From a virus, in the IMG/VR virus record IMGVR_UViG_3300020385_000006, positions 62,001-126,000 of that record: 64,000 nucleotides of DNA. One strand, 5' to 3'. Shown here in pieces: positions 796-61,786 of this stretch. How positions within the stretch are numbered: the stretch's first letter is position 1; each line of letters starts with the position of its first letter. The translations under genes were made by a program, and so were the position numbers. The notes beneath the pieces were generated by a model. It worked only from the letters and a program-made list of their open reading frames with translations. It was not told the origin of the DNA and searched no databases.

Positions 796-1569
796 TTAGT
801 CGTTGAATAACTCATCAAATGCAGCAGATACATCATCTACTTTATTGACACCAGCTGGAGCCGGTTCTGGAGCTTTTTGAGTTGTAACTGGTTCTGCTGT
901 AGCCGTTTCTGTTTCTCCTTCAGGATTCAGATACGTTTCTAGAGCAGCTTTAAGATCATCATATGATGGTTCTTTAAAAATTACTGCCAAATCTGGTTGC
1001 TGTTTCGCAACACGTTCTGCAACATTTTTATCTTCTGTCATCATAGTGACATTAGGCTTTACACGAATTGATGTTTTTGGATATTGACCAGGACCATCTG
1101 CTGGAGTAAATTCTACTACAATGTCACGTCCGCCACTTGGATCTGTAATATCGCCATAATCAGGATCTGTAATAAATCCTAATAGCTCTTGATAAACAGT
1201 TTTACCAAATCCCCACATCTTAACGCCTTCAGATTCTTTACCTCTTACAATTACCGGAACATATGTTCTCATCTTAGGTTCCATCTGTTTACCTAGTTTC
1301 CATTCATCTGAATTACCAGATGCTTTTAACTTTTCACAGAACTCCACTACTGGATCTGGTTTTCCGTTTGTAACTGGAGATAAGTAATTTTTCTTACCTA
1401 AGTTGTAATGAAAATAAAGTTCTTGGAATGGATTATCTCTATCATGCTGATAAGGTACAATTCTTACTACTTGCTTGCCAGGTTCTGGCTTCCAGAGATT
1501 GTCGCGACGAGCGCCGGTTGTTTGTAATTGATTAAGTTTCGCTTTAATTGCGTCTAAATTAATTGCCAT
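796..1569 (-). CDS. 32: Single-stranded DNA-binding protein, T4 gp32-like
   Basis: Cooperative ssDNA-binding protein for replication and recombination. The 257-aa product has the gp32 layout: a short N-terminal segment, a core beginning with NLWKPEPGKQVVRIVPY (about 24-40), a linker rich in Pro, Glu and Thr (about 217-240), and an acidic C-terminal tail VDDVSAAFDELFND of the kind that recruits partner proteins in T4. T4 gp32 binds zinc through one His and three Cys; here there is a single Cys (C78), so the zinc site appears to be lost. It sits directly upstream of RecA, a natural partner. It has its own promoter at 1610-1641 and an A-rich leader with AAAAAAGG before the ATG, suggesting independent and possibly autogenous control. 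Confidence 0.9.
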   Translation of the reverse strand: MAINLDAIKAKLNQLQTTGARRDNLWKPEPGKQVVRIVPYQHDRDNPFQELYFHYNLGKKNYLSPVTNGKPDPVVEFCEKLKASGNSDEWKLGKQMEPKMRTYVPVIVRGKESEGVKMWGFGKTVYQELLGFITDPDYGDITDPSGGRDIVVEFTPADGPGQYPKTSIRVKPNVTMMTEDKNVAERVAKQQPDLAVIFKEPSYDDLKAALETYLNPEGETETATAEPVTTQKAPEPAPAGVNKVDDVSAAFDELFND

Positions 1570-1980: not shown

Positions 1981-2988
1981 CTACTTTGATGTTTCTACGA
2001 ATTCAACATCATCATACTTAACCTCTACACTTTCGCCGTCATCTGTAAGACCAAAAAAGGACTCTGAGTCATTTGGATCAAATCCAGTAAGTTCTAATGA
2101 GACAAAAAATCCACTTTCAACTATTTTTTCTCCTCCAACAAAAGCTAAGGCACTATCATCTTTACGAGCAATGTCTGATAAGGTTTTATAATCGAATGGT
2201 CCATTAACTCGGTCTTCATTGATTAGGCTTGCATCATTAGACATTGGCCGGCCTTTAAAAAGTTTTGCGTACTGTTCTTTTAACATTTTCGGTTTCTTAG
2301 TCGTTCTTTTACTTTCGTTTAAATTTTGTTCGCCCATATAATCATTAATAGCATCTATAATATCTTCATATGCTTCAATACTTTCATCTTCTACATTCCC
2401 CTCGTTTGCATCATAAACAGTGGTAAATATTGCACCATCACCTAAATATTCTTGAGTCGCCGTCCATTTTTCTCCATCCCAAGTACCTTCATATTCAACT
2501 TCTCCTTCATATCCAGAATCATTATCCGAAGGCTCTCTCATATCATCATGATCTTTCACTTCTATTTTACCAGGTCCGGAGCCGTATATCTTTAATGGTC
2601 CTTTGGTACCGGTAGTTATAGATGTTAATCCCGTATATTTATCCATTCCATATACCCGGTTTATCTCATCCTCATTATCCTTCACATACTTTTCAATAGT
2701 CCTAAAAACATCTTTTGGATCGCGAGTTATCTGAGATGGTGAAATACTTTGATTTTGATCGTCCATATAATGCCATTCAGCGTAATCAGTATCGCCTGTT
2801 GCAACCTTGTACGTTTTTCCATTTGCTTCAATGAAGAAAATTAGCTTCTTGTAATGATTTTCGCCATGGTCTGTAACTTTAATTGCGGCTTCTGTAATTG
2901 GGGTTTCTGTAATTAGACTTGCATCATTAGACATTGACCGGCCTTTAAATAGTCTTGCATACTGTTCTTTTAACATTTTCTTTTTCAT
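1981..2988 (-). CDS. Candidate capsid-targeted protein with duplicated targeting motif (335 aa)
   Basis: Function unknown. The protein starts MKKKMLKEQYARLFKGRSMS and the same 22-residue block (residues 5-26) recurs at residues 235-256 with 20 of 22 identical. Each copy is basic and amphipathic and contains LKE, which fits the (L/I)xE cleavage rule of T4-type prohead proteases. Each copy is followed by a separate acidic domain: about residues 30-225 (rich in Asp, Glu and Gly) and 257-335. The gene therefore looks like two fused cargo modules. It starts by a TAATG overlap with the preceding gene, whose N-terminus carries a similar LLKE motif. The 70-bp DNA repeat behind the motif is about 91% identical, which points to a recent duplication. 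Prohead targeting is inference by analogy with T4 internal proteins. Confidence 0.7.
   Translation of the reverse strand: MKKKMLKEQYARLFKGRSMSNDASLITETPITEAAIKVTDHGENHYKKLIFFIEANGKTYKVATGDTDYAEWHYMDDQNQSISPSQITRDPKDVFRTIEKYVKDNEDEINRVYGMDKYTGLTSITTGTKGPLKIYGSGPGKIEVKDHDDMREPSDNDSGYEGEVEYEGTWDGEKWTATQEYLGDGAIFTTVYDANEGNVEDESIEAYEDIIDAINDYMGEQNLNESKRTTKKPKMLKEQYAKLFKGRPMSNDASLINEDRVNGPFDYKTLSDIARKDDSALAFVGGEKIVESGFFVSLELTGFDPNDSESFFGLTDDGESVEVKYDDVEFVETSK
2221..2290 (-). repeat. Direct repeat, copy 2 (internal targeting-motif module)
   Basis: This 70-bp stretch matches 2911-2980 with six differences by eye. It encodes the second MLKEQYAKLFKGRPMSNDAS block of the 335-aa protein. Confidence 0.85.
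2911..2980 (-). repeat. Direct repeat, copy 1 (N-terminal targeting-motif module)
   Basis: This 70-bp stretch encodes residues 5-26 of the 335-aa protein and matches 2221-2290, 690 bp away in the same orientation. Confidence 0.85.
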
Positions 2989-3254
2989 TATCTGTATTGT
3001 CCTGTTTTAATTGCCTTTATTTGTTGCATCATAGCAGCTTTATCATCTCCTAAATCGTAAAGAAACTCTTTCACTTCATCGTTATAAGCAGCAAATGGTC
3101 GTTCAGCTTCTGAATCTATGTTCATGCGTATAAAGTTGCCATACTCTTGTTTGTCCATATCCATTACCATGTCTTCTAATTGCACACTCATGGCAAATAA
3201 CGGATCTGCTGAAAGCGGATTATTTTCTTTTAATAGTGATTTTAATCGTATCAT
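2988..3254 (-). CDS. Small protein with LLKE N-terminal motif (88 aa), candidate capsid cargo
   Basis: I do not recognise the body of this protein. The N-terminus MIRLKSLLKENNPLS is short, basic and amphipathic and ends in L-K-E, like the removable targeting peptides of T4 internal head proteins. The remainder is acidic and mostly helical, with a methionine-rich stretch (MSVQLEDMVMDMDK, about 22-35). It overlaps the next gene by TAATG, suggesting translational coupling, and has a TATAAATAT element 17 bases upstream (3271-3279). Packaging in the head is a hypothesis only. Confidence 0.65.
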   Translation of the reverse strand: MIRLKSLLKENNPLSADPLFAMSVQLEDMVMDMDKQEYGNFIRMNIDSEAERPFAAYNDEVKEFLYDLGDDKAAMMQQIKAIKTGQYR

Positions 3255-4982: not shown

Positions 4983-6332
4983 TTAAACAATTTTAGAAGT
5001 CATGTCTGTCATGGCATGGTAATTTACCCCAGCTTTAATTTTAACCGGGAATTTACCAGCTTTACTCATTACTGTACGTAACTTTATTAACAAATCTTTA
5101 CCATCTGATACGTCGTAGTCAAATAATAACGAATCATAGGTATATAAAATTAATTTTGTGTTATATTCTGATAACAATTCATTTACTTCATTAATCACTG
5201 ATAAATTATATTCTGTTTCAGATGCTTGAAGCATATAATTAAACAATTTATTAGGATTCATTTCATGCAAATGTTTTTTATATAAAGGCCGTTTCATTAA
5301 CGGAGTTTTAATATAACCTTTTGCTTTAAATATCTTCCATAAGAACTCTATAAACTGCTTTGTTTTTCCAAAAAACGGTACTTTTGCAAAGTCTTTGTCA
5401 ATACCTCCATATAATAATCGGAATGTAATTTTTTTGGAGTCTTCATATTCTTGTTCTGATATATCTTCTTTACCAAAATATTGTCGTGCAAAATATTCAT
5501 GTATAGACCCTGCAGGTAAATCATATCCTATGATATCAGCAATAAGTCTAGGGTGATATGCATCAAAGTCCATTTCAATCAACATACCACGTTCCCATCG
5601 ACTTACAAATGATTCACGGCATCCATCATCTTTATTCAATGCAGCATAATTTACTCCACCAAATTTATTGGATGGTCTACCAGTAGTAGTCCATATATTA
5701 TATTCTGTCTGTGCTTTATTATATTTTATACCATTTGCTTTGAAATGTGATACAAATTTTCCATAATCTACTTGCAATCCAGATCTTTCAATTGATGCAA
5801 AATTATCCGTTACTACCTGTTCATATTCTTCAAAATCTTTTGTCTTTTCAAATGTATTATATGACTTCATAAACTCTTCACGCATTGCAATACACCGTTC
5901 TATATGGCATGTCATTGGCAACCAATCATATGTATTAGTTTCATTATGCCACCACCGGTTCCAAACATCATGAGCAACTGTATTTGTTTCGTTTAGCGGT
6001 AACATTCGATGAGATTGCCACCATTCTACCATATCCGCATCATAACACTTTATACCGGTAAAATTAACGAATCGCTTTTTGGCTAAAACATAGATATCAT
6101 GAAGACTAGTAAGGTCTTGTAGACGTTCGATATTGAGGTTTAAACAATCCATATGATGGAATGGAACAATATAATCAACGTCATTTACAATTGAATAAAT
6201 GTATATAAAACATATGCGAGTATTTGTATAATGCTGAAAAGGATCTGAATATATTGGTATCCAGAATGATGCTCCGGCTTCAAGTGATATTAATACTTGT
6301 TGTAACTCTATTTCATCTTCGATTATCTGCAT
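4983..6332 (-). CDS. polA-like: Family A DNA polymerase, short and atypical (449 aa)
   Basis: Template-directed DNA polymerase of the Pol I family. The C-terminal half shows the palm and fingers motifs in order: WTTTGRPSNKFGGVNYAAL (about 214-232, equivalent to TGRLSSxxPNLQN), motif A EMDFDAYHPRLIA (about 253-265, first catalytic Asp), motif B KKITFRLLYGGI (about 300-311, Lys and Tyr kept) and motif C LYTYDSLLFDYD (about 396-407). In motif C the usual HDE is YDS, so the Asp is kept but the flanking His and Glu are not. The N-terminal 130 residues could be a degenerate 3'-5' exonuclease domain; its acidic residues are not clear. T4-like phages normally use a family B polymerase. An in-frame TTG three codons upstream is possible, but ATG at 6332 is chosen. 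The position in the tail module is unusual. Confidence 0.85.
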   Translation of the reverse strand: MQIIEDEIELQQVLISLEAGASFWIPIYSDPFQHYTNTRICFIYIYSIVNDVDYIVPFHHMDCLNLNIERLQDLTSLHDIYVLAKKRFVNFTGIKCYDADMVEWWQSHRMLPLNETNTVAHDVWNRWWHNETNTYDWLPMTCHIERCIAMREEFMKSYNTFEKTKDFEEYEQVVTDNFASIERSGLQVDYGKFVSHFKANGIKYNKAQTEYNIWTTTGRPSNKFGGVNYAALNKDDGCRESFVSRWERGMLIEMDFDAYHPRLIADIIGYDLPAGSIHEYFARQYFGKEDISEQEYEDSKKITFRLLYGGIDKDFAKVPFFGKTKQFIEFLWKIFKAKGYIKTPLMKRPLYKKHLHEMNPNKLFNYMLQASETEYNLSVINEVNELLSEYNTKLILYTYDSLLFDYDVSDGKDLLIKLRTVMSKAGKFPVKIKAGVNYHAMTDMTSKIV

Positions 6333-6374
6333 GTATAGCAATATAAGAAAAATATTTCATATAACCAAATGTAA

Positions 6375-56310: not shown

Positions 56311-58047
56311 CTATATAGTATCTAAGCCATGAACTAATACTTTACCGTAGAATTCAGGACGAACTATTTTCTTAGCATAACGAGTCATAACACCTTTTCT
56401 TGGAGTAAAGTTGTCTGGATCGTATACCAATGGAGTCATAATTAATGGAATGTATGGAGAATATACAGCACCTGTTTCTAGGAACTGAGATCCACGATAT
56501 CCCATTAAAATAGAATTTTCAGTCATATATGGATTCTTATAAACTTGGAATCTAGAATTAATAGATCCAACTTTTTGAACACCCATTGCAAACTGCATTT
56601 TATCACCATCTGTATCAGCAGCATATCCTGGAATAGATTCTAGGATAGTCGCAACAGTTGGAGAACATACAAGGAAGTTAGCTCCACCTCTTAAAGTTAA
56701 TTGGTGAATTTTGTTCGAAACTTTTTGTATTTTAGTACCTAAAGTTTGGAACCATGTTCCTTGGTTATATGCTTGAGCTGCAGAATTTCCGGCATTAAAT
56801 CCACCAACGGCTGCATTATACTCATAACCTACTTTCGCAGACCATCTTTCAACAGTTTGAGCATTTTCTTGTAACATGCCTAAAATTTCTAAATCAATTT
56901 CTTGCGAAACGTATTCAGATAACATGCTAGTCAATTCTGCTTCAGCATCAATTGAATGATATGCATTTAAATCTTGGGCAAATTCTGGAGTCCATACTGC
57001 CTTCAACTTACGTGTCTTTGCAACAATGGCTTCAGATCTCATTTCAAGATTAATTTCTGGAATATTTAAAGAAGTGGAGCCGTTCATGTCTTCGTTAGGA
57101 GCTTGATCTTCGTAGTCACCTCTAGTAATATCAGATGGTTGTAACGCAAATGATACTTTAAATGCAGATGTCGCTTTGATATCTGCATCTTTCTTAATTA
57201 AGAATTCAATATGCGAACCGTTAGCAGTTGTTCTAGTAAATTCTGGATAGAATGCATTTGATCCAGACAAGTTAAATGAACGAACAGCTTCTTGATCATA
57301 ACGAGCAGCTACAGATGCATCTGAATGTAATGATTTAGAAGGTACTGATAAAATAACATGATTATCACCATGTACAGATGCAGAAAACTCAGAATTAAAG
57401 TTTGTAAAGATACCTAACTCTGTAGCAGTCATTGCATCACCTGCTGATGCAGCAGTAGATGTAAATAAACCAGTAGTTGCAGATATAGAACCAGTTCTTG
57501 CAGTAGTAATTCCAGATTCACCTAATGTAACAGAAGCACCTTCCACCATATTAACTGAATATCCAAAACGACCTGGGCCATAAAGACCTTCAGTTCCTGG
57601 TGTTCCTTTACGAGCATCAGTGATACCAAATACAGAATCAGATTGAGCATCTTTTCCTTGACCAGTCAAGAAATCATTTCCACCTGCTTGGTCAATTTGA
57701 TTAACCGCAGTACCATATTTAAAGTCTAAGTAAAATACTAGACCAGATGGTAAGTTCATTGGTTGTACAGAAACAAAGTCTTTAGCAGCAATTTCAGCAA
57801 AAATTCTACGAACTAATGGAAGAGCTACCCCTGACCATTCTTCTGAATTTGAGTTTCCACCTGTCGCAGATGCTTCTGTTACCAATTGCTTGGCTTGGTT
57901 CTCTAAAAGAACGGCCATGCCTTTTCTTTCAACCTCTGATGATAATCCTTCCAATAAACCAGTCCTTTCCCACTTACGTTCAAGTGCGATAGCAGCTGCA
58001 TTTTGATTGGCACGACCATCTTGAGGCAATAATGAATTTATATTCAT
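56311..58047 (-). CDS. 23: Major capsid protein, gp23-like (578 aa)
   Basis: HK97-fold major capsid protein. The N-terminal propeptide runs to a site equivalent to that of T4: LLENQAKQLVTE followed by AS, with cleavage expected after residue 58 (T4 gp23 is cut after 65). The following EEWSGVALPLVRRIFAEIAA (about 69-88) and KDFVSVQPMNLPSGLVFYLD (about 89-108) are the gp23 core signature. The end, ARYDQEAVRSFNLSG and later the conserved TPLVYDPDNFTPRKGVMTRY block, is also typical. Gene size is near T4 gp23 (521 aa). AAAAAGGAAAAG precedes the ATG, and the gene ends at the strong terminator at 56258-56284, so it is highly expressed. Confidence 0.97.
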   Translation of the reverse strand: MNINSLLPQDGRANQNAAAIALERKWERTGLLEGLSSEVERKGMAVLLENQAKQLVTEASATGGNSNSEEWSGVALPLVRRIFAEIAAKDFVSVQPMNLPSGLVFYLDFKYGTAVNQIDQAGGNDFLTGQGKDAQSDSVFGITDARKGTPGTEGLYGPGRFGYSVNMVEGASVTLGESGITTARTGSISATTGLFTSTAASAGDAMTATELGIFTNFNSEFSASVHGDNHVILSVPSKSLHSDASVAARYDQEAVRSFNLSGSNAFYPEFTRTTANGSHIEFLIKKDADIKATSAFKVSFALQPSDITRGDYEDQAPNEDMNGSTSLNIPEINLEMRSEAIVAKTRKLKAVWTPEFAQDLNAYHSIDAEAELTSMLSEYVSQEIDLEILGMLQENAQTVERWSAKVGYEYNAAVGGFNAGNSAAQAYNQGTWFQTLGTKIQKVSNKIHQLTLRGGANFLVCSPTVATILESIPGYAADTDGDKMQFAMGVQKVGSINSRFQVYKNPYMTENSILMGYRGSQFLETGAVYSPYIPLIMTPLVYDPDNFTPRKGVMTRYAKKIVRPEFYGKVLVHGLDTI

Positions 58048-58060
58048 TTTCTTTTCCTTT

Positions 58061-58966
58061 TTACAGATTAGCTAATTTTTTCCATCTAGCAGATAATGCA
58101 GTACCTTCAGAAATCACTTTCTTTGGAGCTGTTGACCGACTAGGTGTAGAAGCATAGCTTTCTTTGATTGATCTTTTTGTTTTACCATTCAAGTTAAACG
58201 ATTCAGATAATGTAGCATAAACTAATTTTACTTCACGAATAGATGAAGCGCGATCAAAGTTTTCAATTACTTTCATTTTCTGAGATTCATTCATTGAATG
58301 ATTTTTAAACAATTTGTTTGAGAATAATAATTTTGCATTAAGAAGATTAACTTCATTAATTTTACCTTTCAAGAATCGAATAACGTTGTAAGCTTCTTCT
58401 AAGTCTTTTTTAGATTCGCCTTCATCTTCTTTAGCTTCTTCCACAGGGGTTTCATCTGCTTCATCTTCTTCTCTTAAAGCATTAATAATTTCATCAATAG
58501 AAATATCTTCATCTACTTCATCGCCGCGGCCTTCTTCAGCCACAGGAGCATCATCTTCACCTTCTGCATTTTCTGCAACTGGTTCTTCAGAAGCTGGTTC
58601 TTCTTCTTCATGAATTTCAGATTCTAATTCTTTGATAATCGCTTCTAATTCTAGATCTTCATCTTCAGCTACCGGCTCATCTTCAGGTGCCATTTCTTCA
58701 GAATGAACATCCATTGGATCTTCATCTGCATCCATGATACCTCTGCCTTCAGCTGCTACTGGCTCTTCCACCGGTGGTTCTTCAGCTACTGGTTCAGCTT
58801 CTAATTCTGGTTCATCTAAACCTTCTTCTTCAGCTAATTTAGCAGATAACATTGATTGTAATCTAGGAGTAAAAGCTTCTTCTAATGCAATTTTAGCATT
58901 AGCAAGTGCAGTTTCTCTTACGGCTTTCGCGTCTGCAATTGCTTCTTTTAATAAATCATTTGCCAT
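58061..58966 (-). CDS. 22: Prohead scaffold protein, gp22-like (301 aa)
   Basis: Internal scaffold on which the capsid assembles, later destroyed by the protease. The first 55 residues are helical with MANDLLKEAIADAKAVRETA, the middle (55-190) is extremely acidic, with repeated EEPVAE and EEGRGD, and the C-terminal region has VNLLNAKLLFSNKLFKNHSM (about 206-225) and MNESQKMKVIENFDRASSIR, the conserved scaffold end. LLKE and several (L/I)xE sites fit gp21 cleavage. It is directly upstream of the capsid gene with a 13-base gap, as in T4. GAGGAAAAA precedes the ATG. The acidic core replaces much of the T4 length. Confidence 0.9.
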   Translation of the reverse strand: MANDLLKEAIADAKAVRETALANAKIALEEAFTPRLQSMLSAKLAEEEGLDEPELEAEPVAEEPPVEEPVAAEGRGIMDADEDPMDVHSEEMAPEDEPVAEDEDLELEAIIKELESEIHEEEEPASEEPVAENAEGEDDAPVAEEGRGDEVDEDISIDEIINALREEDEADETPVEEAKEDEGESKKDLEEAYNVIRFLKGKINEVNLLNAKLLFSNKLFKNHSMNESQKMKVIENFDRASSIREVKLVYATLSESFNLNGKTKRSIKESYASTPSRSTAPKKVISEGTALSARWKKLANL

Positions 58967-59128: not shown

Positions 59129-59155
59129 AAAAAAGTGCCAAAAGGCACAATTTTT
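59129..59155 (-). terminator. Terminator after the bS21 gene
   Basis: The minus strand reads GTGCC, loop TTTT, GGCAC, then TTTTTTAC. The stop codon of the bS21 gene is a few bases upstream. The other side also has a T-tract, so it could act in both directions. Confidence 0.85.
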
Positions 59156-59405
59156 ACTGATTCTGGTCATCTAACCATTGATAATACTTGGCTCGATCAA
59201 CCTCCTCTTTTCGTTTTTGACCTTTTGATTTAAATTCTTTACGGTCTTTTAATTCTTGAATCTTCCCAGATTCTTTTAATTCTCTTTTAAAAGCTTTTAA
59301 TGCTGAGTTTATATCACCTTTTGGATATTGTTTTGTTGATAAAACTTTAACAGCTACACCTGCACCAGGTATAATACTTTTGAAATGTTTACTTTGTTTA
59401 CTCAT
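59154..59405 (-). CDS. rpsU-like: Phage-encoded ribosomal protein bS21 (83 aa)
   Basis: Homologue of small-subunit protein bS21, which sits at the mRNA exit/anti-Shine-Dalgarno region of the 30S subunit. The middle DINSALKAFKRELKESGKIQ (about 31-50), then ELKDRKEFKSKGQKRKEE, matches bS21 (compare FDVALRRFKRSCEKAG ... RRREFYEKPTTERKRA of E. coli). The C-terminal EEVDRAKYYQWLDDQNQ resembles the end of Bacteroidota bS21, by memory. An N-terminal extension of about 20 residues is phage-specific. The gene has no Shine-Dalgarno sequence (A-rich leader), unlike its structural neighbours, and is followed by a terminator. The product may replace host bS21 to favour phage mRNAs; that is inference. Confidence 0.85.
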   Translation of the reverse strand: MSKQSKHFKSIIPGAGVAVKVLSTKQYPKGDINSALKAFKRELKESGKIQELKDRKEFKSKGQKRKEEVDRAKYYQWLDDQNQ

Positions 59406-59461: not shown

Positions 59462-59875
59462 CTAATCTTCTGATAAAGATTCACCTATCTTATAATAACG
59501 ATTTAAAACAGTACCCATATCTTCATATGCCGATTCTAAACGTTGTTGCATTGAACTCATCTCTGTTGCAGTTTTTTCAAAAACTTTATAAGCTTCATTC
59601 ATTTGTTTCATATGTCTAGAAGTAGTAACATTATCAAACCAATGTTCAGTTTCTGATAAAGTCATCTTTTCTGCCCGTTCTACCACGCTTTTTAGAGTCT
59701 CTGCAACTTCTTTTAATCTACCCGAACCATATACCATCTCACCTAACTTATGAAAATTACCGACTGCTTCAAGAAACTCATTACGTTCTTCTTTTGTCAT
59801 TTTTTCATCATCTGTTTCTCCTAAATATTTTTCATTTAAGATATGCTTCATTAATTTGTTTTCGTATTTGTTCAT
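59462..59875 (-). CDS. Helical head-region protein (137 aa)
   Basis: All-helical, charged protein (MNKYENKLMKHILNEKYLGE, then EFLEAVGNFHKLGEMVYG and EHWFDNVTTSRHMKQMNEAY). The N-terminus is basic and has ILNE, which could be a prohead cleavage signal. It overlaps the preceding gene by TAATG and lies between protease and bS21. Candidate prohead core or internal protein. No homologue is recognised by eye. Confidence 0.65.
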   Translation of the reverse strand: MNKYENKLMKHILNEKYLGETDDEKMTKEERNEFLEAVGNFHKLGEMVYGSGRLKEVAETLKSVVERAEKMTLSETEHWFDNVTTSRHMKQMNEAYKVFEKTATEMSSMQQRLESAYEDMGTVLNRYYKIGESLSED

Positions 59876-60177
59876 TATATATCTCCTATATCTGCAGAAA
59901 AAGTATCTTGTTTAGCTAAATTTTGTTTCCGATCTAACATTTTTCCCATTGCAGCAACTTGCTTTTCTGCTCCTTGCAAATATCTAGCAACTTGATTTTG
60001 TAATTGTTGATATTGAGGATCACCAGTTTCTTCATCTTTAGCTTCTAATGCAGTTACTATTTCTTTTTGAAAATCTTCCATTGCTGTGAGTAGTCCATTT
60101 GTTTGTTCAATAAAGTATGCATAATCAACTGGTTCTGATTGTTCCTTTAATAATTTACTTAATTTTATCCTACTCAT
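59875..60177 (-). CDS. Candidate prohead core or cargo protein with LLKE N-terminus (100 aa)
   Basis: The start is the ATG at 60177, preceded by GGAGAGAAG; an upstream ATG in the same frame would add 30 residues inside the preceding gene and is rejected. The N-terminus MSRIKLSKLLKEQSEPVDYA contains LLKE after a basic helix, the targeting-plus-cleavage pattern of internal head proteins. The remainder is a coiled coil (QYQQLQNQVARYLQGAEKQV, about 57-76). It overlaps the preceding gene by 8 bases and the next by TAATG. Confidence 0.7.
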   Translation of the reverse strand: MSRIKLSKLLKEQSEPVDYAYFIEQTNGLLTAMEDFQKEIVTALEAKDEETGDPQYQQLQNQVARYLQGAEKQVAAMGKMLDRKQNLAKQDTFSADIGDI

Positions 60178-60379
60178 AACTTCTCTCCGCTGGTATATTT
60201 CCGAACACGTCCGGTCCAGATGGTTTAGTTCCATTTTTTGATTTACTAGCATATTTACTACGACCATCCTCTAATCCTGATGTTCCTTCATTTGCCAATG
60301 TATCAAATACTTCGCCAGTACCTTTTGATCCTTTTTTATTATAAGGACCGTATTGTGATTGTAAATCTTCTAATGCCAT
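60170..60379 (-). CDS. Small head-region protein (69 aa)
   Basis: MALEDLQSQYGPYNKKGSKG followed by a Gly-, Ser- and Lys-rich unstructured middle and the end GPDVFGNIPAERSYE. It lies between protease and the LLKE protein, 2 bases after the protease stop. Small Gly-rich proteins of this style are found near the head genes in related phages, but no role is known to me. A virion protein or assembly factor is likely. Confidence 0.65.
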   Translation of the reverse strand: MALEDLQSQYGPYNKKGSKGTGEVFDTLANEGTSGLEDGRSKYASKSKNGTKPSGPDVFGNIPAERSYE

Positions 60380-60381
60380 AA

Positions 60382-60987
60382 TTAAAACTCCGTTATAATA
60401 TCAGTAATAATACGTTCTACATTTGCAAATTTATTTGCAGTAACAGATCCTTTAGATTCATTTACTGGAGATAAAAATGCTCCATGAGTGGATGGATTAG
60501 AAACAAAGTCAAATGCAATTAATTCAAAGTCTGGCTGTACCTCTAATGTATCTCCGCCTTCTCTCATTACTTCTTTAACAGATCCCATTCCTCGTGATGA
60601 TATACCTAATCGTATACCTGATTTAAAAAGTTCTTTAAGAATATTTCCTGCAGGAGTTCCTAACACTTCAACTTTACCTACCAAATCATCCCCTTGCCAT
60701 CCCATTTCTAAAACGTTATGAGATACATTATTTAAATTAACTACCGATGAATCCGGATGATCCAATTCTCCTAATGCACGTCGTTCTTTGATAAATGTAG
60801 CAGAATAATTATTTGCTTCACGCATTAAAGTTTCTTTTGGATAAATTCTTCCATTTTGATTTTTTGCTTCTGCTCTCTGAAGAACTCCTTTTACAATTAA
60901 TTTACCATTATTTTGAGTTAATGATTCATTTATTGCTTGGGGTGATACTTCAAATACTGTATAATCTACTAAAAGTTGCTTATTCAT
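60382..60987 (-). CDS. 21: Prohead protease, gp21-like (201 aa)
   Basis: Serine protease that matures the prohead by removing scaffold and propeptides. The fold is that of phage/herpesvirus assemblins. Catalytic candidates are His77 in GELDHPD (about 73-79) and Ser130/131 in IRLGISSRGMGSV (about 125-137), the conserved SSRG-type motif. The segment QPDFELIAFDFVSNPSTHGA (about 151-170) is also conserved. Length is near T4 gp21 (212 aa). It is encoded just upstream of the scaffold and capsid genes, with three small helical genes and bS21 in between. Cleavage rule (L/I)xE is expected to apply to several proteins in this window. Confidence 0.95.
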   Translation of the reverse strand: MNKQLLVDYTVFEVSPQAINESLTQNNGKLIVKGVLQRAEAKNQNGRIYPKETLMREANNYSATFIKERRALGELDHPDSSVVNLNNVSHNVLEMGWQGDDLVGKVEVLGTPAGNILKELFKSGIRLGISSRGMGSVKEVMREGGDTLEVQPDFELIAFDFVSNPSTHGAFLSPVNESKGSVTANKFANVERIITDIITEF

Positions 60988-60989
60988 TT

Positions 60990-61142
60990 TTATCCTTTAT
61001 TATATAATCCTGAATTTATAAAAGCAACGTGTTGTTCGTATCGCTTTCTTTCATCTGCATATTTACGTTTTTGTTCTTGTAATGTTAAATTTTGGTTTTC
61101 TTTAGCCTTTACAAATTGTTGCCAAGTTCTATTTAATATCAT
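60990..61142 (-). CDS. Small basic protein (50 aa) upstream of protease
   Basis: A short gene overlapping the preceding one by ATGA (start 61142, preceding stop 61141-61139) and ending 2 bases before the protease ATG. The product MILNRTWQQFVKAKENQNLT continues with LQEQKRKYADERKRYEQHVA and ends INSGLYNKG. It is basic and helical. Tight coupling on both sides supports a real gene although it is short. It may be a core or cofactor of the protease. Confidence 0.75.
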   Translation of the reverse strand: MILNRTWQQFVKAKENQNLTLQEQKRKYADERKRYEQHVAFINSGLYNKG

Positions 61143-61786
61143 TGTGATAGTTCCTTTAATCGATTTGCTACTCGTAACATGCGTTCATTAATTTTTGCAA
61201 AACGTCTACCAGTTGCTTTCCAGAAATGGCCGGACTGTACTCCCATTTCGGTTTTCAATCGTAAATTGTTATTGACGATTTTTTCCATCTCGCCTAACAT
61301 TTTATTAACTTCCATGATACCTCTGTTAACTTTTTGTTGAGGAGTTGATGTAGGATCTTTTTTATAATCGCGATATGAAATTTCATGAAGATCTTCCATA
61401 GTTGATATCATTTTTTTATACATACTTTCAAAATGCTTTTCAGAAGATTTAGATTTTTTATAATCAAATACTTCTGCATTATCATTTTCATCTTCTGATT
61501 TACCAAATGCATGAGGAGTTTTTACAGGACCTTCGCCGCCATCTAAATTACCAGTCACATTAGCTTCTTCTAATTCTTTATCTTTAACAGCCTTTTTCAT
61601 TGGCTCTTTTTTATCACCATCACCGTCCATATCTAAATAATCTGGCTTAGCGGCTTCATCAACTTCTTTATCTTTAACGGCCTTTTTAAAAGGCTCTGTT
61701 TTATCACCATCTTTATCTACGTCCATGAAATCGGGTTTAGCTTTTGCTTCTTGTAAATATTTTTGCAATTCTTCGATTAGTTTCAT
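61139..61786 (-). CDS. Prohead core/cargo candidate with two EF-hand-like repeats (215 aa)
   Basis: The N-terminus MKLIEELQKYLQEAKAKPDF has a basic-amphipathic helix ending LQE|A, an ideal gp21 site. Residues 17-46 and 47-76 are tandem copies of KPDFMDVDKDGDKTEPFKKA and the following VKDKEVDEAA, each with a DxDxDGD calcium-binding loop. The repeat junctions VDE|AA and LEE|AN also fit the cleavage pattern. The C-terminal 110 residues are helical and basic. It lies between a small virion protein gene and the 50-aa gene. The role in the prohead core is suggested by context and cleavage sites only. Confidence 0.75.
   Translation of the reverse strand: MKLIEELQKYLQEAKAKPDFMDVDKDGDKTEPFKKAVKDKEVDEAAKPDYLDMDGDGDKKEPMKKAVKDKELEEANVTGNLDGGEGPVKTPHAFGKSEDENDNAEVFDYKKSKSSEKHFESMYKKMISTMEDLHEISYRDYKKDPTSTPQQKVNRGIMEVNKMLGEMEKIVNNNLRLKTEMGVQSGHFWKATGRRFAKINERMLRVANRLKELSQ
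61559..61738 (-). repeat. Two tandem 90-bp repeats encoding EF-hand-like modules
   Basis: Units 61738-61649 and 61648-61559 encode the KPDxxDxDxDGDKxEPxKKA modules of the 215-aa protein. Confidence 0.85.

Follow-up and report, generated by a model that had tools for sequence, protein, structure and literature searches.

Short interchangeable N-terminal tags probably load very different proteins into the head of a T4-type virus and are then cut by its own protease

Background

To our knowledge, few model phages have yielded proteins that are injected into the host, and targets have been identified for a part of these proteins. In T4, the prohead protease gp21 cuts after L/I-x-E and the propeptides of gp24 and Alt are removed (PMC9026906, PMC5694885). 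The first ten residues of IPIII are sufficient for packing in this phage, the core proteins gp67 and gp68 are degraded by gp21, and Alt is an injected ADP-ribosyltransferase (PMC9026906). The three internal proteins of T4 block GmrSD restriction enzymes, and internal proteins tagged with a capsid-targeting sequence (CTS) are known in T-even phages, where the ip genes are recognised by their leader (PMC12373910). In the T4 record the N-termini read MAKINELLRE/S for gp24, MKTYQEFIAE/A for IPII and IPIII and MLKEQLIAE/A for gp22 (slashes mark the position after the E). In T4, replacement of this E by D prevents cutting yet leaves packing intact. N-terminal head-entry signals on injected proteins are also found in P1 DarB (first 30 residues) and in the shared N-terminus of SPN3US gp53 and gp54 (PMC9024508, PMC5694885). 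However, their sequences are unrelated to the tags described here, the SPN3US protease cuts at AxE, and no large swappable repertoire has been reported for these phages.

The virus group analysed here resembles the T4 system of IPI, IPII, IPIII and Alt in its short N-terminal leaders ending in (L/I)xE, in its gp21-family protease and in the presence of a common leader on unrelated bodies, as well as in putative defence or host-modifying cargo, which includes an ART-type cargo as with Alt. Yet the T4 CTS is essentially one (MKTYQEFIAE) and is carried by few proteins, whereas the present group has no fewer than four coexisting leader families, 9-40 residues long, that swap with one another. It is also set apart from the T4 internal proteins by acidic bodies, tag-like C-termini, leaders inside proteins and a tandem two-cargo protein. 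A literature search largely confined to papers outside subscription found no account of environmental relatives with tandem cargo, with scaffold-like tags or with more than one swappable leader family, and no virion proteome of the clade.

Genome context of the window

The stretch of DNA analysed (the window, 64,000 nucleotides) comes from a virus record of 127,430 bases, in which it spans positions 62001-126000. Its gp23 is nearest to those of Microcystis phage Mel-JY01 and of the cultured Flavobacterium phage immuto, with 57% identity. All genes described for the window lie on the minus strand. They include a gp21-type prohead protease of the Peptidase_S77 family at 60382..60987 (PF03420, 1.2e-26; phrog_207, 4e-53), a gp22-type scaffold at 58061..58966, assigned from its orthologs and its termini (N-terminal MANDLLKEAIADAK, C-terminal ..ISEGTALSARWKKLANL), and a gp23-type major capsid protein at 56311..58047, so that the S77 protease and the gp22/gp23 pair required by T4-type CTS systems are present. 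The proposed gp23 propeptide comprises residues 1-58 and ends in QLVTE (57874-58047). The first-pass annotation had counted this end as a cut site of the same type; the string AKQLVTE/A is indeed there, but the P3 residue is V (V-T-E) and not L/I. At the same place the relative L017 and Mel-JY01 show I-S-E, and several gp23 relatives start with M..INQLLE/S.

A ribosomal protein bS21 homolog (59154-59405; PF01165, 2.4e-8) lies between gp22 and a neighbouring 137-aa gene, and Mel-JY01 also has a bS21 homolog, next to gp21 (L233:17185-17412). In the same record, outside the window, several proteins encoded at L007:12552-17175 start with Sec-type signal peptides of Bacteroidota style (..FALSQ, ..TIYGQ), which suggests a Bacteroidota host for the virus.

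Two candidate cargo genes with exchangeable leaders

Two cargo-like genes are placed between a polymerase-like ORF (4983..6341) and a gp32-type single-strand DNA-binding protein (796..1569), the latter assigned by gene order against the annotated ssDNA-binding protein of phage immuto. Immuto carries a tagged gene, MENFDLKKFLVENRLTYNSKLINE, in the same interval. No DNA or protein similarity to the window cargo region was found among GenBank phages, and family searches with the bodies of both proteins gave no recognised relatives.

The first gene (2988..3254) encodes an 88-aa protein whose leader, MIRLKSLLKE (3225..3254), has a proposed gp21 cut after E10. The protein has no Pfam family and no PHROG match below E 0.1. 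Homologs of its body occur in L002 and L003 (99% identity) and in L004 (84%), and an additional search for relatives returned the same three contigs only. The window protein reads MIRLKSLLKE/NNPLS and that of L004 MKKNKKPLLETFKKIGGYRLNE/DNPLE: the two leaders are unrelated up to L-x-E, and homology starts right after the E. Leaders of the MIRLKSLLKE family are found on many unrelated bodies in the relatives, and Mel-JY01 carries two of them, MIKLKSLLQE and MIKLKSLLKE.

The second gene (1981..2988) encodes a 335-aa protein that we read, from its ORF and from partner arrangements in relatives, as a two-cargo protein in the order leader, body A, leader, body B. Its N-terminus was initially taken as an eight-residue leader, MKKKMLKE; the string is present, but the leader extends over 28 residues and ends in SLITE (MKKKMLKEQYARLFKGRSMSNDASLITE, 2905..2988, net charge +3.5). 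Body A (197 aa, pI 4.28; 2314..2904) ends in QNLNE, a second possible gp21 site. It is followed by a linker, SKRTTKKPK, with the internal leader 2, MLKEQYAKLFKGRPMSNDASLINE (2215..2313), and by body B (77 aa, pI 4.05; 1984..2214), which is an independent tagged gene in L003 and L020. The DNA of the two leaders forms a 109-nt direct repeat (2895..3003 and 2205..2313) with 80% identity, which is high only across the leader codons and drops at the Glu codon. All copies of this leader type end in L-[IL]-x-E, and four further body arrangements follow it in relatives: body B alone (L003 and L020), leader-A-leader-C (L004/L005), a shorter body A' (L014 and L028) and an unrelated body D (L024). Because body A ends in QNLNE just before the second leader, we predict that gp21 would cut at SLITE, QNLNE and SLINE, so that bodies A and B would be freed separately and the inner leader excised. 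The predicted structure of the 335-aa protein is of low confidence (pLDDT 45). The C-terminus of another protein, L017:1-753, reads ..NESKHPIKEQYDRLFKNKVAL (KEQYDRLFK) and resembles the core of the 335-aa leader at a protein end.

The internal proteins of T4 are basic, whereas the mature bodies of the window proteins are acidic (pI 4.0-4.3; the 88-aa body has a pI of 4.3) and do not correspond to the small basic body typical of T4. Neither are the window leaders homologous to T4 MKTYQEFIAE. The nearest T4 form is the gp24 propeptide MAKINELLRE, which has ten residues and the pattern M-x-[KI]-[LI]-x-x-L-L-x-E seen in MIRLKSLLKE and MIKLIDLLNE. Experiments have established gp24 as a substrate of gp21, although its propeptide sits on a shell protein and not on cargo.

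Leaders beside gp21 and gp22, and cargo bodies in relatives

Two small proteins conserved across the clade are encoded between gp21 and gp22. The 100-aa protein (59875..60177) starts at an internal ATG, at 60177, of the ORF 59875-60267, and the longest-ORF call to 60267 is probably wrong. Its leader MSRIKLSKLLKE occupies 60142-60177. Five or more different leaders occur among its orthologs, and in nearly all of them (L/I)xE immediately precedes the common body; they include MSRIKLSKLLKE, MKLTDLLKE and MKLKDLIKE, a 40-residue leader ending in GINE in L030, MIRLTGLAKTFRKKLNE in L046, and MKKPLLEMFKKIGGRRLNE in L043, which is like the leader of the L004 relative of the 88-aa protein. This body follows leaders of the 335-aa kind in L049 (MNLKKQYQRLFEGR..SLLNE) and in L055 (MNLQKRYAQLFEGKLRSNDKALLAE). 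A 69-aa ORF (60170-60379) and the start of the 100-aa protein share a few bases. The 137-aa protein (59462..59875), which adjoins gp22, has the leader MNKYENKLMKHILNE (59831-59875), kept in near relatives and swapped to MIKLKELLNE in L084 and to MSHFEDKLLNTILSE in L063.

The four N-termini from which the proposal started were all located where the first-pass annotation had placed them: MKKKMLKE (1981-2988), MIRLKSLLKE (2988-3254), MSRIKLSKLLKE (60177) and MKLIEELQKYLQE (61786). The last does not belong with the others, as the orthologs of this 215-aa protein (61139..61786) read FFKE, YFEE or FFNE at the corresponding place, without (L/I)xE, and a cleavable leader is not supported. This protein matches PHROG 24078 and contains two D-x-D-x-D-G-D-K-x-E-P repeats (KPDFMDVDKDGDKTEP and KPDYLDMDGDGDKKEP).

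The leaders of the 100-aa and 137-aa proteins are of the kind found on the cargo-like proteins, but these two proteins are more likely prohead-core components than cargo. Their position and their conservation, as expected of core proteins like T4 gp67 and gp68, favour an explanation in which all tagged proteins are prohead-core assembly proteins that are digested or expelled at maturation, with nothing delivered to the host. We consider this unlikely for the whole set. The 335-aa and 88-aa genes, like most of their relatives, are not located with the head genes; they are rare and undergo rapid exchange, and several bodies found behind the tags in relatives make little sense as scaffold: a zeta-toxin-like kinase (L136; 4.5e-10, above the curated Pfam cut-off), an Acb1 anti-CBASS match and a family with a predicted ADP-ribosyltransferase (ART) fold.

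The Acb1 match, on L178:4266-4826 (9e-7; 29.1 bits against a Pfam cut-off of 27), shows two H-x-T/S motifs, PHCT and PHMT. It came from the MQxLAG search described below, whereas the zeta-like kinase and the ART-fold bodies bear a different tag of this kind. The 15 members of the ART-fold family bear the leader M[IVK]KL[IL][DN][IL]LKE/ITEGKQVG or near variants and have invariant H, S, R and E-x-E positions (H..S-x-x-R..E-x-E). The family has no Pfam match, but its model (pLDDT 75) matched the tRNA 2'-phosphotransferase 7yw4 in Foldseek (E 6.5e-6; TM 0.74 by target), and on this model the fold is that of the enzyme class of T4 Alt. In phage immuto, a protein with the leader MKKSQLRQIIKE has a DUF5661 match and a weak RegB-like match. 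A Mel-JY01 protein that starts with MQFKQYILGE has a match to S-AdoMet lyase (4e-10); its gene is placed between those on the polymerase side and gp32. This protein (L234:6405-7691) ends in the tag-like MKITREQLKEKIRIIVKRVLNE/AMK, possibly a C-terminal leader comparable to the C-terminal propeptide of T4 Alt.

Altogether, 15 Pfam families were matched among 133 tagged proteins, some as false positives of the loose regex, and most bodies have no family. PD-(D/E)XK and terminase matches were read as such false positives and were left out as cargo. Since the three internal proteins of T4 block GmrSD restriction enzymes, counter-defence appears the likeliest job for the unassigned cargo.

Interchangeable leaders and scaffold-like tags

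A shared-leader test was applied to this virus group and its isolates (1984 called proteins, each 110 aa or longer); it counts 14-residue segments with at least 9/14 identities between proteins with unrelated bodies. At the N-terminus the test gave 530 body-cluster pairs, against none at offsets 40, 50, 60 and 80. With the pattern-selected genes removed, the N-terminus retained 103 pairs, offset 20 had a single pair, and from offset 30 onwards there was none. The leader groups recovered were MKKSxLKxxIKE, MIKLxDILKE/MIKLKSLLQE (the family of MIRLKSLLKE in the window), MENFDLKKFLVENKL..LLKE and ..RMQKLAG[LI]ITE. Classical Sec signal peptides also emerged as a control, and therefore the test detects real N-terminal modules.

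Among the matches listed for the MQxLAG tag pattern, 90 of 95 are N-terminal, on at least 58 payload clusters, with a mean tag length of 19 residues and a median payload pI of 4.4. Because this search required the final E, related tags were rechecked without that requirement: 21 were found, 13 of which have (L/I)xE within five residues (counted by eye). A global leader-swap test gave 47 observed swaps against 18.8 expected (maximum 32), a modest excess that rests on six clusters. In the cleanest cargo case, two bodies with 75% identity over 157 aa follow leaders of different families, MNKEQLRMQMLAGIITEGQYKAKLNE and MDNFDLKKYLAENRLLKE. The protease gp21 was found in 10 of the 14 long tag-bearing contigs (among those longer than 105 kb, in five of five) and in none of six other contigs, which are mostly shorter. 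When the leader peptides were compared with GenBank phages by tblastn, they matched the immuto phages only, or nothing. In phage immuto (MW353175, 102294-118931), 11 of 18 candidate tagged genes form a cargo island immediately upstream of the gene for terminase (119017).

An HMM built from the RMQ tags and run against all called proteins matched C-termini, mostly those of gp22 scaffolds, with a best E of 8e-6 for a terminus reading ..NAAFARMQKLAGIIKEN. The likeness to the gp22 C-terminus of the same clade consists in this match; the cargo tag differs in being N-terminal and in adding ITE/S. The gp22 of the window itself (ARWKKLANL) shows only weak likeness to the tag. The HMM also matched a 77-aa family (L123:10376, L163:5061, L139:10513, L218:4153, L121:8866 and others), whose members start with MNPKDTIKLDVPLFIRLL and end with ..EIKKMQRLAGIIK, the same motif as at the gp22 C-terminus.

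That Sec signal peptides appear in the same test is a reminder that sorting signals too are N-terminal on unrelated bodies, and the leaders could be directed elsewhere (to the membrane, a replication site or a degradation adaptor), with LxE reflecting something other than gp21. This is very improbable, however, for leaders that occur on proteins beside gp21 and gp22, resemble the T4 gp24 propeptide and the scaffold C-terminus, and are found in gp21-bearing phages.

Frequency of the motif and the case for head targeting

The first-pass annotation had staked its proposal on a signature frequency above chance in this genome, and none was seen: (L/I)xE occurs at 19/108 N-termini against 21/108 and 24/108 internal positions, and a strict motif at 5/82 against 4/82 and 2/82 (p=0.5). 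As the frequency in this genome alone gives no signal, the case rests on comparison. In the tag-bearing loci of relatives, with the pattern-selected genes removed, N-terminal (L/I)xE was enriched, at 51/226 against 12/226 (p=5e-8), and phage immuto showed (L/I)xE at 12/108 N-termini against 4/108, while three phages without an annotated T4-type gp21 showed no enrichment (5/126 against 6/126). What goes beyond chance here, as judged from the sequences, is modularity: one leader can precede unrelated bodies, and one body can follow different leaders. Short lysine- and leucine-rich N-terminal helices that often contain LxE, with no targeting, would account for the flat frequency in this genome, yet such coincidence is the least credible explanation of all, for composition does not explain swaps exactly at the E, leaders of 10-28 residues recur at high identity on unrelated bodies, down to the DNA level in the window, and the shared-14-mer test speaks against it.

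The leaders of the 88-aa, 335-aa, 100-aa and 137-aa proteins and of their relatives behave as interchangeable modules with a C-terminal boundary at (L/I)xE. We therefore retain the core of the original interpretation, head-targeting leaders cut by gp21: they are modular, end at this boundary, occur in phages with an S77 protease and beside gp21 and gp22, and resemble T4 gp21 substrates. Its parts on MKLIEELQKYLQE, on the eight-residue limit of MKKKMLKE and on motif frequency are dropped. We consider it quite likely that these leaders are T4-type capsid-targeting sequences cut by gp21 and generalised into several interchangeable families, such that short tags probably bring very different proteins into the head and are afterwards removed by the viral protease.

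Proposed mechanism and meaning

We propose that the basic amphipathic leader would bind the scaffold core or the inner shell during prohead assembly and pull an unrelated, mostly acidic protein into the prohead. Active gp21 would then cut after (L/I)xE and free the body inside the head, as the motif, the protease and the exact module boundaries suggest, and the freed body would leave with the DNA at infection, by analogy with T4. The 88-aa and 335-aa proteins of the window would be such head cargo, the latter in tandem. Because the leader alone would confer entry, recombination between leader copies could swap cargo.

More tentatively, and at somewhat less than an even chance, this may be a general cargo-loading code in a large group of uncultured T4-superfamily phages, in which leaders would imitate the gp22 C-terminus or a gp24-like N-terminus, gp21 would free the cargo, and the leader DNA would act as a recombination site that shuffles cargo, including tandem precursors.

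A packing tag that can be read from sequence would allow injected cargo to be listed from metagenomes and would serve as a filter for new counter-defence proteins, ready-made weapons that could enter the next host with the DNA. It would also make testable how head cargo is chosen, through its likeness to scaffold ends.
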